Assembly (NCBI GenBank): GCA_018220935.1
Contig: JAAOXU010000016.1
Coordinates: 1 to 34,716, forward strand
Source of the DNA: Candidatus Altarchaeota archaeon
GTDB lineage: Archaea; SpSt-1190
DNA: 34,716 nucleotides
Direction: 5' to 3'
How positions within the stretch are numbered: position 1 is the stretch's first letter; each line of letters opens with the position of its first letter. Shown here piece after piece: positions 16,597 to 21,152 of this stretch. The position numbers were made by a program, and so were the translations under genes. A model generated the notes under the pieces. The model searched no databases. It saw nothing but the letters and a program-made list of their open reading frames with translations, and was not told the origin of the DNA.

Positions 16597-18666
16597 GTGA
16601 AACGAAAAAGTGGTGAAGAACGCCATTGTTTTATATCAAAACCACCAAGGGATAATGTGGCAGACAAAAAACCCAAAAGAAAGCCCACGCTGGGTGCAAG
16701 TGTAGCTCCCCCTACTGAAAAGGCCGACTTTTTAACTCAATTACAAAACACCTTTGAAAGAGGTGTTGTAAGTGCTGAAGTTGATATAGGTGGCTTAATT
16801 AATGAAAAGGGTGGCGGGGGAAGCGTTGTTACTATGTTTGGTGAAGCAGAACGTATTTCAACAGGTCCTGCCGGGGTTCATGATTCTTTAATTAAAAAGA
16901 TGAAAACAATTGCTGATACTTTTGGCGGTAAATTTACGACTCACGCACCAATGCAAGCTAATCCATCTGATCTTATGCCTGTAGGGCGAGCTAAGGCGGC
17001 CCAACTCTTAAAGGAAAGTTTAGAATATACTCAAAAATTAGGGGGTAGTGTTATGACAGTTCACCCAATTGGTCAAATGGAATATTATTTTACTGATCCT
17101 TTTATTGGTCAAAAAATGCCTGTCAATAATCCCTTTTATTTAGCAAAGGATAAAGATGAACTAAAAGGTTTATTTAAAAAATTCAATGTGAATGATACAC
17201 TTCTAAAAGAACAATTAACAAAAGAATGGGAAAATTGGGTTGGTGTGCTACCAACAGTTTTTGCAGAAAGATATGGGGCAATTGCAGCTCAAGACATTAA
17301 CGCGTTTTCAACTAGCGCGGCAAGATGGAAGCTTGGTGAACTTGCTAAAAAAAATAGAAATGGTGTTCAAAGTTTTTTACGCGATGCAAGTGACCACATT
17401 AATTCAGGTTTAGGTGCTGGTGTAAAAGCTGAAGCAATGAAAGCGGTTGAAGAAATTGTGAACGCGTCAGCTGATAAGCAACAACAATTAGTAAATACTT
17501 TATCTAGATATGCGGGTGATCATGAAAAACAAGCCAAAGGTCTTTGGTCAAAAGTTGCCATGGTTTCTTTAGAGGCGATTAAAAAAGATGGATCGAGAGC
17601 AGATATTTCACCTGAATCTAGACGACTTATCCAAAGAAAAGGCGGGTGGGATAATTTAACTGCAAACGAACAAAACAGAATTAATGATGAAAACAGGGCA
17701 GCTCACGAAAAGGTACGTTTAGAGGCTTGGGGAAACTTAATGGGTGGTGAACAAGGAAAAGCGAGATTTGGGCCTTTTGATAAATCTGAAGAGCAAATCA
17801 TGGATTCAATAAAAGACACTTTTAGAATGATCCTTAAAGGTGTAAAAGCTGATAAAGGTGACGTTCTAAAAGCATTAAAAAATAAAAAATTAAAAATTGG
17901 TTTAGAAAACTTATTTCCAGCAAGACCTGAAAAAGGATACATGCAAGGATTTGCATACTTTTATGAGCCTGAACACATGATAAAATTAATTAAAGAATTA
18001 CAAGCTGTTGCAACAAGTAAAGAAATTGGTCTTCCTAAGGATATATTCACTTTAACTTTTGATGTTGGTCACGCGGCTGCATCTTCAAAGGGAAAGAGAA
18101 CTCCAAGTCAATTTTTAAAGAAGTTAAAAGAAGGTGGTATAAATCCTGAGCACGTTCACATTGTCGGTGGTTCTGGATATGGACACGGTCATATTGCATG
18201 GGGAGACTGGTTAGATGAAGTCTCAAAAATGGATCCAGGAATTATTGCTAAACTCCAAGATTCAGGTGTAATTAATATTGAGGGTGGAGCTGGATTACAT
18301 GATGTTGATGTAACACTTAATGCGTTGTGGGATAAAGGTGTCCCAGTTGAGGCTATGATGGCAATGGCAGGTAATCCTGATGCATTCACGCCAAGTCTAG
18401 CAGAATATTCAGGTTTTGATGCTGCAGGTATAAAATATATGAAAGGTGCTCTTGAGAGTATGGGTTATCAAGGATCTGGTATGCCTGGTAGGGCTTTCTA
18501 TTCATTCCAAAACGAAACTATAGGGGAACCAATGCAAGGTGCTTTTGGAGGTTATACTGCACCTGCTCTATTTGGTGGTGGCTATACAATTGGGCCTGGC
18601 AGAACTTCTGCTATTTGGGCTAGTTCACAACCCTTACTATACTCATCAAAATCTGGTGGTGAATAA
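16597..18666 (+). CDS. AP-endonuclease-family-2/Endo IV-like TIM-barrel protein with large helical insertion and Gly-rich tail
   Basis: Ordered metal-ligand-like motifs THAPMQANP, TVHPIGQ, GLENLFP, LTFDVGHAA, HVHIVGGSGYGHGHIAWGDW, INIEGG; about 270 aa separate the second and third. Confidence 0.65.
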   Translation: MKRKSGEERHCFISKPPRDNVADKKPKRKPTLGASVAPPTEKADFLTQLQNTFERGVVSAEVDIGGLINEKGGGGSVVTMFGEAERISTGPAGVHDSLIKKMKTIADTFGGKFTTHAPMQANPSDLMPVGRAKAAQLLKESLEYTQKLGGSVMTVHPIGQMEYYFTDPFIGQKMPVNNPFYLAKDKDELKGLFKKFNVNDTLLKEQLTKEWENWVGVLPTVFAERYGAIAAQDINAFSTSAARWKLGELAKKNRNGVQSFLRDASDHINSGLGAGVKAEAMKAVEEIVNASADKQQQLVNTLSRYAGDHEKQAKGLWSKVAMVSLEAIKKDGSRADISPESRRLIQRKGGWDNLTANEQNRINDENRAAHEKVRLEAWGNLMGGEQGKARFGPFDKSEEQIMDSIKDTFRMILKGVKADKGDVLKALKNKKLKIGLENLFPARPEKGYMQGFAYFYEPEHMIKLIKELQAVATSKEIGLPKDIFTLTFDVGHAAASSKGKRTPSQFLKKLKEGGINPEHVHIVGGSGYGHGHIAWGDWLDEVSKMDPGIIAKLQDSGVINIEGGAGLHDVDVTLNALWDKGVPVEAMMAMAGNPDAFTPSLAEYSGFDAAGIKYMKGALESMGYQGSGMPGRAFYSFQNETIGEPMQGAFGGYTAPALFGGGYTIGPGRTSAIWASSQPLLYSSKSGGE

Positions 18667-19500
18667 ATGACAGTTAGAAAAAAAGAAGATGTACTAAGAG
18701 ATGTTAAGCGGGGTAAACTCAGGTCTCAAGAAATTGAAACTGTGTATGATTTTATTGGAGCGGTATCAAAGAAATTTGGTACGTTTATTAAGGCGGTTGC
18801 AGTCTTTGGTTCCTTTGCAAATAAAAAAGAGGGTGCTGATGATATTGATATTTTCGTAATTGTTGATGATTCATTTGCGCCAATGGATAAAGCACTCTAT
18901 ATTGCTTTTCAATCTGAAATGACAATTCTAACCCAAAAATATCCAAAGTTTCATGTGAATACTGTTACAATTAGTCAATTTTGGGATTCTGCAAGACGGG
19001 GTGATCCTCTAGCAATTAATGTACTTCGAGACGGAGTCGCTTTAATTGATTCAGGATTTTTTGCACCACTTAAACGTCTTTTAATTCAAGGTAAAATTAA
19101 ACCGACTGAAGAAGCAATAAGTGCGACATTATCGCGTGCATTCTTTAACATAAATGGCTATAATAATGCATTAATGGGGGCTGCAAATGCGCTCTATTGG
19201 GCTGCAGTTGAAGCGGCTCATGCAGGTGTTATGCGTTATGGTAGAATTCCGGGATCTCCATGGGAGGTCGCATCCATACTTCGTGAAACTTTACTAAAAG
19301 ACAAAGTGATCACAACTAGTGACATTAAGGTATATGAGGAAGTCTTTGGAATGGAAAAAGCTATGTCAAAAGGTGAACTAAAAAATATTGAACCTGCAAA
19401 ACTAAAAGAGCTTCATGAAAAAGTTGTGAAATTTGTAGCAAAAATTGATTCTTGGGTTAGTATGCAAGGCCTTAAAAATGCCATGAAGGGTGGAAAATAA
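18667..19500 (+). CDS. MNT/Pol-beta-like nucleotidyltransferase with helical C-terminal domain (1)
   Basis: AVFGSFANKKEGADDIDIFVIVDD (GSx..DxD); helical C-terminal half. Confidence 0.82.
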   Translation: MTVRKKEDVLRDVKRGKLRSQEIETVYDFIGAVSKKFGTFIKAVAVFGSFANKKEGADDIDIFVIVDDSFAPMDKALYIAFQSEMTILTQKYPKFHVNTVTISQFWDSARRGDPLAINVLRDGVALIDSGFFAPLKRLLIQGKIKPTEEAISATLSRAFFNINGYNNALMGAANALYWAAVEAAHAGVMRYGRIPGSPWEVASILRETLLKDKVITTSDIKVYEEVFGMEKAMSKGELKNIEPAKLKELHEKVVKFVAKIDSWVSMQGLKNAMKGGK

Positions 19501-20720
19501 TGGTTGGAAGTACCAAGAAAAAAATCAAGTCAAAGGTTGGTGAAGAAAAAGTGAATAAAGCAACTTTTGACAAGGCAAAAAAAAGGCGTGAAGTATTTTT
19601 GCGAGCTAAAGTTAAGGTAGCCGAAAGGTTCTCAAATACTGCAAGACAAAAACTTGGTAATATGGTAAAAGGTGTTGCTGTAATTGGTAGTATTGCTCGT
19701 GGTGACTTTAGGCCTGGTTCAGACATAGATGTATTAGTTGTAATTGATGATACTCAAAGGGACGTTCCAGATGAATTAAAAGAAAAAATGCTTGCAATGC
19801 TAAACGATATTGGAAAAAAGATTGATAAGAAAATGCAAGTCCAAATTCATACACTCACTGAAATGTTTCAATTCCTAAAAGAGGGGGACAATATTGTCTA
19901 TAACTTTGTTAGACATATGAAAGTAGTCTATGATGGGGGTATGATGAAACCACTTCAAAAACTATTGAAGGCTGGTGAAATTAAACCCACTAAAGAATCA
20001 GTTATGCGTTCAATGGAAGGTGCAGATTTTTACATGAAAAAAGTTCACCAATATGTTGAGTTTATTGTTGAGAGATATTATAGGGCAGTTACCTGGTCTA
20101 GTAATGCGTTTATTATGGGTATGAAGGAGCAGCCAGCTTCTCCTCCTGAGATTCCAATAGTACTAAAAAAATTTGCAGATCAAGGTGTTTTACCAAGTGA
20201 ACTCCCCGCAATTGCTGCTGAAGTGATTAAGGCTCATAAAGGTATTGAGCATGGTGACTTTAAGCCAACAGTTGAAGACATCTACAAATTAGAACCAAAA
20301 GTTCTGAAATTTTTAGGTATTTTAAGAAAAGAAGTTATTGGTTCTGTAGTTGAAGAGGGACTAAAAGGTGCAATTAAGGCTAAAATTAAGACCATGCCTA
20401 AAATCATATTTGAGTTTGATAAAAACAAATGCTTTGCGTGGTTACTTGATGAGGGTGTTTATGTTGCCTATTATGATGGTTCAAAACTTTCAAAAGTTTA
20501 TACTGCAAAAGTTGTTAAGGGTAAAGTTGGTACTTTCAAATCAACTAAGAATGAAAAACTTTTCAGTGCAATGGAGGTCAGTGAACTGAAACCTCTGATA
20601 AATCAAGCTTTAATTAAAATGATTTATGCCGCGTTGCCAGAAAGTGTAAGACAACCCATCAAAAAGGTTGCAATTGAGTATCCTGGTAGAGCTATGATTG
20701 ATTTAGGCCAACTCAAATAA
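19500..20720 (+). CDS. MNT/Pol-beta-like nucleotidyltransferase with helical domain and extra C-terminal domain (2)
   Basis: AVIGSIARGDFRPGSDIDVLVVIDD; shares PLxxLLxxGxIKPTxE linker with preceding paralog; TAATG overlap. Confidence 0.82.
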   Translation: MVGSTKKKIKSKVGEEKVNKATFDKAKKRREVFLRAKVKVAERFSNTARQKLGNMVKGVAVIGSIARGDFRPGSDIDVLVVIDDTQRDVPDELKEKMLAMLNDIGKKIDKKMQVQIHTLTEMFQFLKEGDNIVYNFVRHMKVVYDGGMMKPLQKLLKAGEIKPTKESVMRSMEGADFYMKKVHQYVEFIVERYYRAVTWSSNAFIMGMKEQPASPPEIPIVLKKFADQGVLPSELPAIAAEVIKAHKGIEHGDFKPTVEDIYKLEPKVLKFLGILRKEVIGSVVEEGLKGAIKAKIKTMPKIIFEFDKNKCFAWLLDEGVYVAYYDGSKLSKVYTAKVVKGKVGTFKSTKNEKLFSAMEVSELKPLINQALIKMIYAALPESVRQPIKKVAIEYPGRAMIDLGQLK

Positions 20721-21152
20721 ATCATAAGCTTCTTGGTATTTTTTCTGTAAGCTTGGACTTAAGCGGCAGTTTGGGCAACTAAAGTGCTCAAGTGGTTTTA
20801 GCTTATCTGGTTTTTCATTTTTTAATCCTGTTAGAAATTCAGAAAAATATTTAGAACAACATTTTGGATATCCAAAAGCAAGTCCCATTTCATAAACTTT
20901 TTCTCCACCTTTTAGTTTTAGTGCATCCTTGTACTTAGCAAGTCCCCTACCACTACCAAATAAAATCTCACTTTTACATCCTTCAGTTTTAATTTCAACT
21001 GTGAGACCTAACTTTTCAATTATTTTAGATACAACTTTTTCTGGACCCTCAAAACTATCCACCCTACTCATGGGCTTAACGCCTTCTGCAGTCAGTAATG
21101 CAAGGACTGCCATTTTAATATCTAATTTGGCGAGTTTTTCTAAATCGCTCAC
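20703..21152 (-). CDS. DUF483-like cysteine-containing protein
   Basis: GLAFGYPKCCSKYFSEF and HFSCPNCRLSPSLQKKYQ motifs; convergent 18-nt overlap with the upstream gene. Confidence 0.6.
   Translation of the reverse strand: MSDLEKLAKLDIKMAVLALLTAEGVKPMSRVDSFEGPEKVVSKIIEKLGLTVEIKTEGCKSEILFGSGRGLAKYKDALKLKGGEKVYEMGLAFGYPKCCSKYFSEFLTGLKNEKPDKLKPLEHFSCPNCRLSPSLQKKYQEAYDLFELA

Follow-up and report, generated by a model that had tools for sequence, protein, structure and literature searches.

A nucleotidyltransferase and metal-site barrel cassette of an SpSt-1190 archaeon as the version of an old conserved archaeal module

Organization of the cassette and its conservation within the class

The window analyzed, a stretch of 34,716 nucleotides of contig JAAOXU010000016.1, originates from a genome of 0.85 Mb distributed over 37 contigs. 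Its nearest named relatives are metagenome-assembled genomes labelled Candidatus Altiarchaeota, 'archaeon isolate SpSt-1190' and, in one case, Micrarchaeum. The group is referred to here as the SpSt-1190 class, which we take to be its GTDB name. Three genes encoding a barrel protein and two nucleotidyltransferases (NTases) were found in the window, with the following features:

16657..18666, + strand: TIM-barrel gene (ORF open from 16597), 669 aa from the likely GTG start; PF01261, MJ1311/3wqo, homologue start
16942-16944 and 17062-17064, + strand: H96 and H136, at the positions of Endo IV zinc ligands H69 and H109, invariant in A1 and in all barrels of the wider set
17131..17880, + strand: helical insertion, residues ~159-408, between barrel strands 3 and 4 (AlphaFold2, pLDDT mostly 80-93)
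17905..18282, + strand: E417, D469, H472, H501, H512 and E542, the other ligand positions, invariant in A1 and the wider set
18343..18663, + strand: C-terminal tail, residues 563-669, conserved end QPLLYSxK, low model confidence
18667..19500, + strand: NTase1, 277 aa, NTase and HEPN-like helical domain (PF18765/PF01909)
18808-18813 and 18841-18849, + strand: GS and DxD motifs of NTase1
19500..20720, + strand: NTase2, 406 aa, NTase, HEPN-like domain and C-terminal, mainly beta domain (PF01909 6.7e-11, AlphaFold2)
19686-19691 and 19722-19730, + strand: GS and DxD motifs of NTase2
19842-19844, + strand: Q115 of NTase2, where an acidic residue is usual

The original prediction of three abutting open reading frames was exact at both junctions. 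The stop codon TAA of the barrel gene (18664-18666) is immediately followed by the ATG of NTase1 at 18667, as seen in an ORF check, and the stop codon TAA of NTase1 (19498-19500) shares one base with the ATG of NTase2 at 19500. However, the predicted first start at 16597 was not retained, since homologues align from VADKK and the GTG codon at 16657 is thus probably the true start. A 149-aa protein without a Pfam family above cut-off is encoded convergently with NTase2 (20703-21152, - strand) and is kept in some class members.

The barrel, NTase1 and NTase2 genes occur together, in the same order and on the same strand, in seven of the nine other class genomes, i.e., in eight including the window, as expected for the single conserved unit that had been proposed. 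In two of these seven cassettes the NTase genes are separated by an opposite-strand ORF of 211-267 aa. Genome G007 carries each of the three genes on its own contig, and G005, the least complete genome of the class, encodes an NTase alone at a contig edge. Neighbors of the cassette in the window's family (a GT4 gene, TFIIS, TFB and others) are partly conserved, as is expected of a core locus. Chance is ruled out by the gene order kept in eight class genomes, together with the partnership of these genes in many other families.

Features of the barrel protein and the nucleotidyltransferases

The first protein of the cassette is a barrel of the xylose-isomerase/endonuclease-IV superfamily with a helical insertion of approximately 250 residues. 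Its match to PF01261 (E 4.8e-7, 30.2 bits) lies slightly under the Pfam cut-off of 31.1, and its best solved relative, by sequence as well as by fold, is MJ1311 (3wqo). The AlphaFold2 model of the barrel reached a pLDDT of 70 and a pTM of 0.66; the huge insertion noticed previously proved to be real and is predicted to be helical. A tail resembling that of the window's barrel is also present in the barrels of loci L067, L069 and L070.

The nine zinc ligands of Endo IV are H69, H109, E145, D179, H182, H216, D229, H231 and E261. Numbering was carried onto the barrel via MJ1311 alignments and motif order rather than by superposition. The positions of H69, H109, E145, D179, H182, H216, H231 and E261 were invariant in 24/24 aligned rows, which represent 21 distinct proteins, three having been fetched twice. 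At the D229 position, D is found in 13 of the 24 rows (10 of 21 distinct barrels) and H, E or F in the window's class. In a nine-sequence alignment including the window, the eight ligand positions are among only 18 invariant columns. Within the A3 barrel clade, seven of the eight are kept in 14-16 of 16 sequences, while E145 was aligned in 6/16, where the alignment is uncertain. The ordered His/Glu/Asp series of an Endo IV-superfamily barrel, as originally described, was thus recovered. In the Foldseek ranking, MJ1311 was followed by ketose 3-epimerases and then by Endo IV; the fold alone cannot separate an isomerase from a phosphodiesterase, and the ligand pattern is more telling.

Identity among barrels across phyla amounts to 16-18%. 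When the profiles of the two barrel clades were compared directly, only a local match resulted (probability 72.7, 103 columns), so that the case for their common ancestry is built on a shared fold family and ligand pattern and on corresponding position and partners.

Both NTases scored above the Pfam NTP_transf_2 cut-off and possess the GS and DxD motifs, in agreement with the two paralogous NTases predicted. The AlphaFold2 model of NTase2 (pLDDT 79, pTM 0.44) comprises the NTase, HEPN-like helices and the beta domain, and Foldseek matched it to kanamycin NTase and to MNT antitoxin (including 7ae9). The Pol beta-type GS and DxD motifs are kept in 48-49 of 54 NTase rows, and an extra DD and a YD aspartate in almost all of them. 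The position in the next strand, presumably equivalent to the third acidic residue in kanamycin NTase as judged from sequence rather than from structural superposition, is occupied by Q, N or T in 47 of the 54 rows (Q 36, N 6, T 5) and by E in one. The NTases may therefore not be catalytic. In the HEPN domains, the RX4-6H RNase motif was not found; the likely equivalent stretch is KxxEH. The suggestion of a cut/modify or repair module found no direct support. These proteins are closer to kanamycin NTase and MNT-HEPN types than to nucleic-acid polymerases, and the usual third acidic residue is missing from them.

In the NTase tree (midpoint root, weak deep forks), NTase1 of the window formed a group at 100/99 support with G047-phylum NTases, of which several are barrel-linked, and NTase2 was placed apart. 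Hence, the paralogues appear to predate the class. A second NTase/HEPN-domain protein of 620-660 aa is encoded away from the barrel in G047-phylum genomes (L052, L053, L073, L074), in one case adjoining CBS and prenyltransferase genes. Genome G361 contains a second, divergent NTase pair without a barrel alongside (L075:5078-6897).

Distribution of the module among archaea

The reach of the module became visible only with distant-homology profiles. Large proteins adjoining NTase homologues in other small genomes often proved to be barrels of the same superfamily. The profile of the A3 clade matched in 59 of 394 archaeal genomes, and the NTase profile gave strong matches in at least 88 genomes. 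The clearest barrels occur in 55 genomes, of which 53 also encode the NTase, located on one contig with the barrel in 39 and within 4 kb in 38; in 14, the two lie on different contigs of draft genomes. Co-occurrence outside the window and a barrel retaining the ligand positions of the metal site, both of which the original prediction depended on, were found. A window-type barrel was detected in 22 of 28 further genomes, most of which have the NTase but not the A3 barrel. Furthermore, the NTase is present in 192/193 genomes of one phylum (157/157 genera), and the barrel in 24/26 genomes of a second and 107/115 of a third phylum (38/39 where completeness is at least 90%). The module is near-universal in four phylum-level groups and was not found in the other archaea searched. 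Some small genomes, e.g., G015, G020 and G035, gave no match, so that small-genome archaea do not all carry the module. From the small genomes, the SpSt-1190 relatives and the survey of Makarova et al. (2019, PMC6393860), we infer that the module-bearing genomes belong to DPANN.

In many other families, a gene encoding a helical coiled-coil protein is located immediately upstream of the barrel gene. This protein was detected in 38 of 42 genomes with other module parts, with distant forms in the G047 phylum, and was absent from 14/14 archaea without the module. All 10 class genomes encode it, with weaker scores and at an unlinked locus, which in the window's genome is C13 at ~45.5-47.1 kb (536 aa). 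The unit originally proposed is therefore real but exceeds a cassette in both size and age: nearly all genomes of several archaeal phyla carry it as a core module, to which one more helical subunit belongs. The cassette represents the class's version of this old conserved module, which consists of a metal-site barrel with its large helical insertion, one or two NTase-HEPN fusions and the coiled-coil protein.

Several further genes were observed around module loci. Housekeeping genes nearby include TFIIS, TFB, TYW3, TRM1 and topoisomerase I; in three families (L067, L069, L070) the TYW3 (tRNA wybutosine) gene follows the module NTase, one or two genes downstream. A Nudix gene adjoins the NTase in two G048-phylum genomes (L049:6959-7396, L050:8419-8856), and a canonical PF01261 barrel of 263-265 aa is encoded directly downstream of the NTases in two loci (L078:10721-11512, L085:9369-10166). 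A conserved paralogue pair termed A8 (~160-190 aa) occurs upstream of the module in one barrel clade (L054, L055, L078, L079, L080, L085). The A8 proteins tested had no Pfam match, and A8 was found in 25 of 39 genomes with module genes and 0 of 17 archaea without the module. As a clear component in the window's class A8 was rejected, matches being weak in 2 of 10 class genomes and none occurring in the window's own.

Relation to known systems and possible function

Open-access literature was searched for DPANN NTases, TIM barrels, HEPN, coiled-coil proteins and NEQ050, and the only relevant paper was that of Makarova et al. (2019, PMC6393860). It lists cls.004259 (NEQ050), 'MNT fused to HEPN', as DPANN-specific, in a house-keeping context, present in 36/67 DPANN genomes, and as unusually conserved 'dark matter' guessed to be a toxin-antitoxin. 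Architecture and distribution, compared here by description, agree with the module NTases, and cls.004259 probably corresponds to the NTase part of the present module. In that paper the family is listed alone and the barrel is unmentioned ('TIM' 0 occurrences). Neither the barrel and coiled-coil partners nor the whole module were found described in the open-access literature searched, in line with the initial statement that no system of such composition was known. The parts of the module belong to known superfamilies, one resembling a family already listed as dark matter.

MJ1311, a D-tagatose 3-epimerase-like protein, shares ligand motifs with the barrel in alignments but is small and without insertion, tail or NTase partners, all three of which the window's barrel has. 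Endonuclease IV (Nfo) and the CbiR phosphodiesterases belong to the same superfamily (PF01261), and 8/9 Endo IV ligand positions are shared. Endonuclease IV, however, is a compact barrel of ~280-300 aa without large insertions, whereas the module barrels have an insertion of ~250 residues or more, a tail of ~100 residues and fixed partners; against the CbiR equivalog NF041277, 18.1 bits compared with a cut-off of 105 place the barrel outside CbiR. Kanamycin NTase and MntA-HepT likewise combine an NTase with HEPN-like helices, either as a following domain or as a partner, but the module differs in the missing third acidic residue and RNase motif, in its near-universal occurrence and in its barrel partner. 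In type VII MntA-HepT, antitoxin and toxin are separate, patchily distributed genes, whereas here NTase and HEPN-like domain form one protein.

That the genes share operons, occur almost universally and encode a conserved ligand set speaks for an active enzyme complex serving basic cell functions. We tentatively favor, at well short of confidence, a single housekeeping complex of barrel, NTase-HEPN and coiled-coil proteins turning over a nucleotide-linked phosphodiester. The barrel would act as a zinc-dependent phosphodiesterase whose chemistry is like that of Endo IV and CbiR. Assembly and substrate access would be provided by the barrel's insertion together with the coiled-coil protein, and the NTase-HEPN subunits would bind nucleotide, either for nucleotidyl transfer or as sensors. 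One part may thus make or recognize the phosphodiester, on RNA, protein or a cofactor, and the other hydrolyze it. Physical interaction is suggested by gene order only, and the class has its coiled-coil gene at a separate locus. Counting against this reading are the replaced third acidic residue of the NTases, the missing D229 in the class, the E145 position, which aligned in 6/16 sequences of the second barrel clade, and the ranking of epimerases above Endo IV.

Because the third acidic residue is lost, a possible though rather doubtful alternative stands close behind, in which the barrel would be the sole enzyme and the NTases, catalytically dead, would bind nucleotide as structural or sensing parts of a large scaffold. 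Replacement of this residue throughout, the big helical insertion and the coiled-coil partner fit such a scaffold. Dead NTases, however, usually lose residues such as GS and DxD, and here GS, DxD, the extra DD and the YD aspartate persist in almost all rows. Nucleic-acid cut-and-extend repair or RNA-end processing would suit the Endo IV-type ligand set and the TYW3 and TRM1 neighbors, yet is unlikely given that the NTases resemble small-molecule or protein nucleotidyltransferases and that some of the same genomes encode a separate, canonical 265-aa PF01261 barrel.

A still less probable reading combines a sugar isomerase/epimerase-type barrel with sugar-modifying NTases, e.g., in surface glycan synthesis. 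It draws on the Foldseek matches to psicose/tagatose epimerases and the GT4 gene adjoining the cassette in the window's family, a neighbor not seen outside that family. Moreover, the H69, H109 and H231 positions are invariant in the barrels, and epimerases are not known to have equivalents of these residues. An MNT-HEPN toxin-antitoxin or antiviral defense unit, for which the MNT/HEPN architecture, weak PADLOC matches (PDC-M05A/PDC-S09) of the NTases and the Foldseek match to 7ae9 may speak, is very improbable: the loci are conserved and near-universal instead of patchy, NTase and HEPN are fused rather than encoded as a two-gene pair, and the RX4-6H motif is absent. A defense island was also rejected, PADLOC giving no match for the barrel, PHROGs being essentially empty and the neighborhood being that of a core locus. 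Presence in nearly every genome of several groups makes the module look like basic cell machinery, and Makarova et al. (PMC6393860) also remarked on the unusual conservation of the MNT-HEPN family they list.

Protein-family clustering revealed no set of families common to all DPANN lineages yet absent from other archaea (Castelle et al. 2021, PMC8204110). Going beyond the housekeeping complex favored above, it is conceivable, if doubtful, that the module represents a multi-protein machine specific to DPANN, passed down from an ancestor shared by several phyla, which makes or reads, and removes, a nucleotide-linked phosphodiester modification that these reduced cells cannot do without. If true, DPANN would share a system of their own, of a type not found in that study. 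The module does not occur in every small-genome lineage. As it is carried by almost all genomes of four phylum-level groups and was not seen in the other archaea tested, it bears on the monophyly of DPANN, and it points to a basic function in episymbiotic archaea, some of which are in culture.
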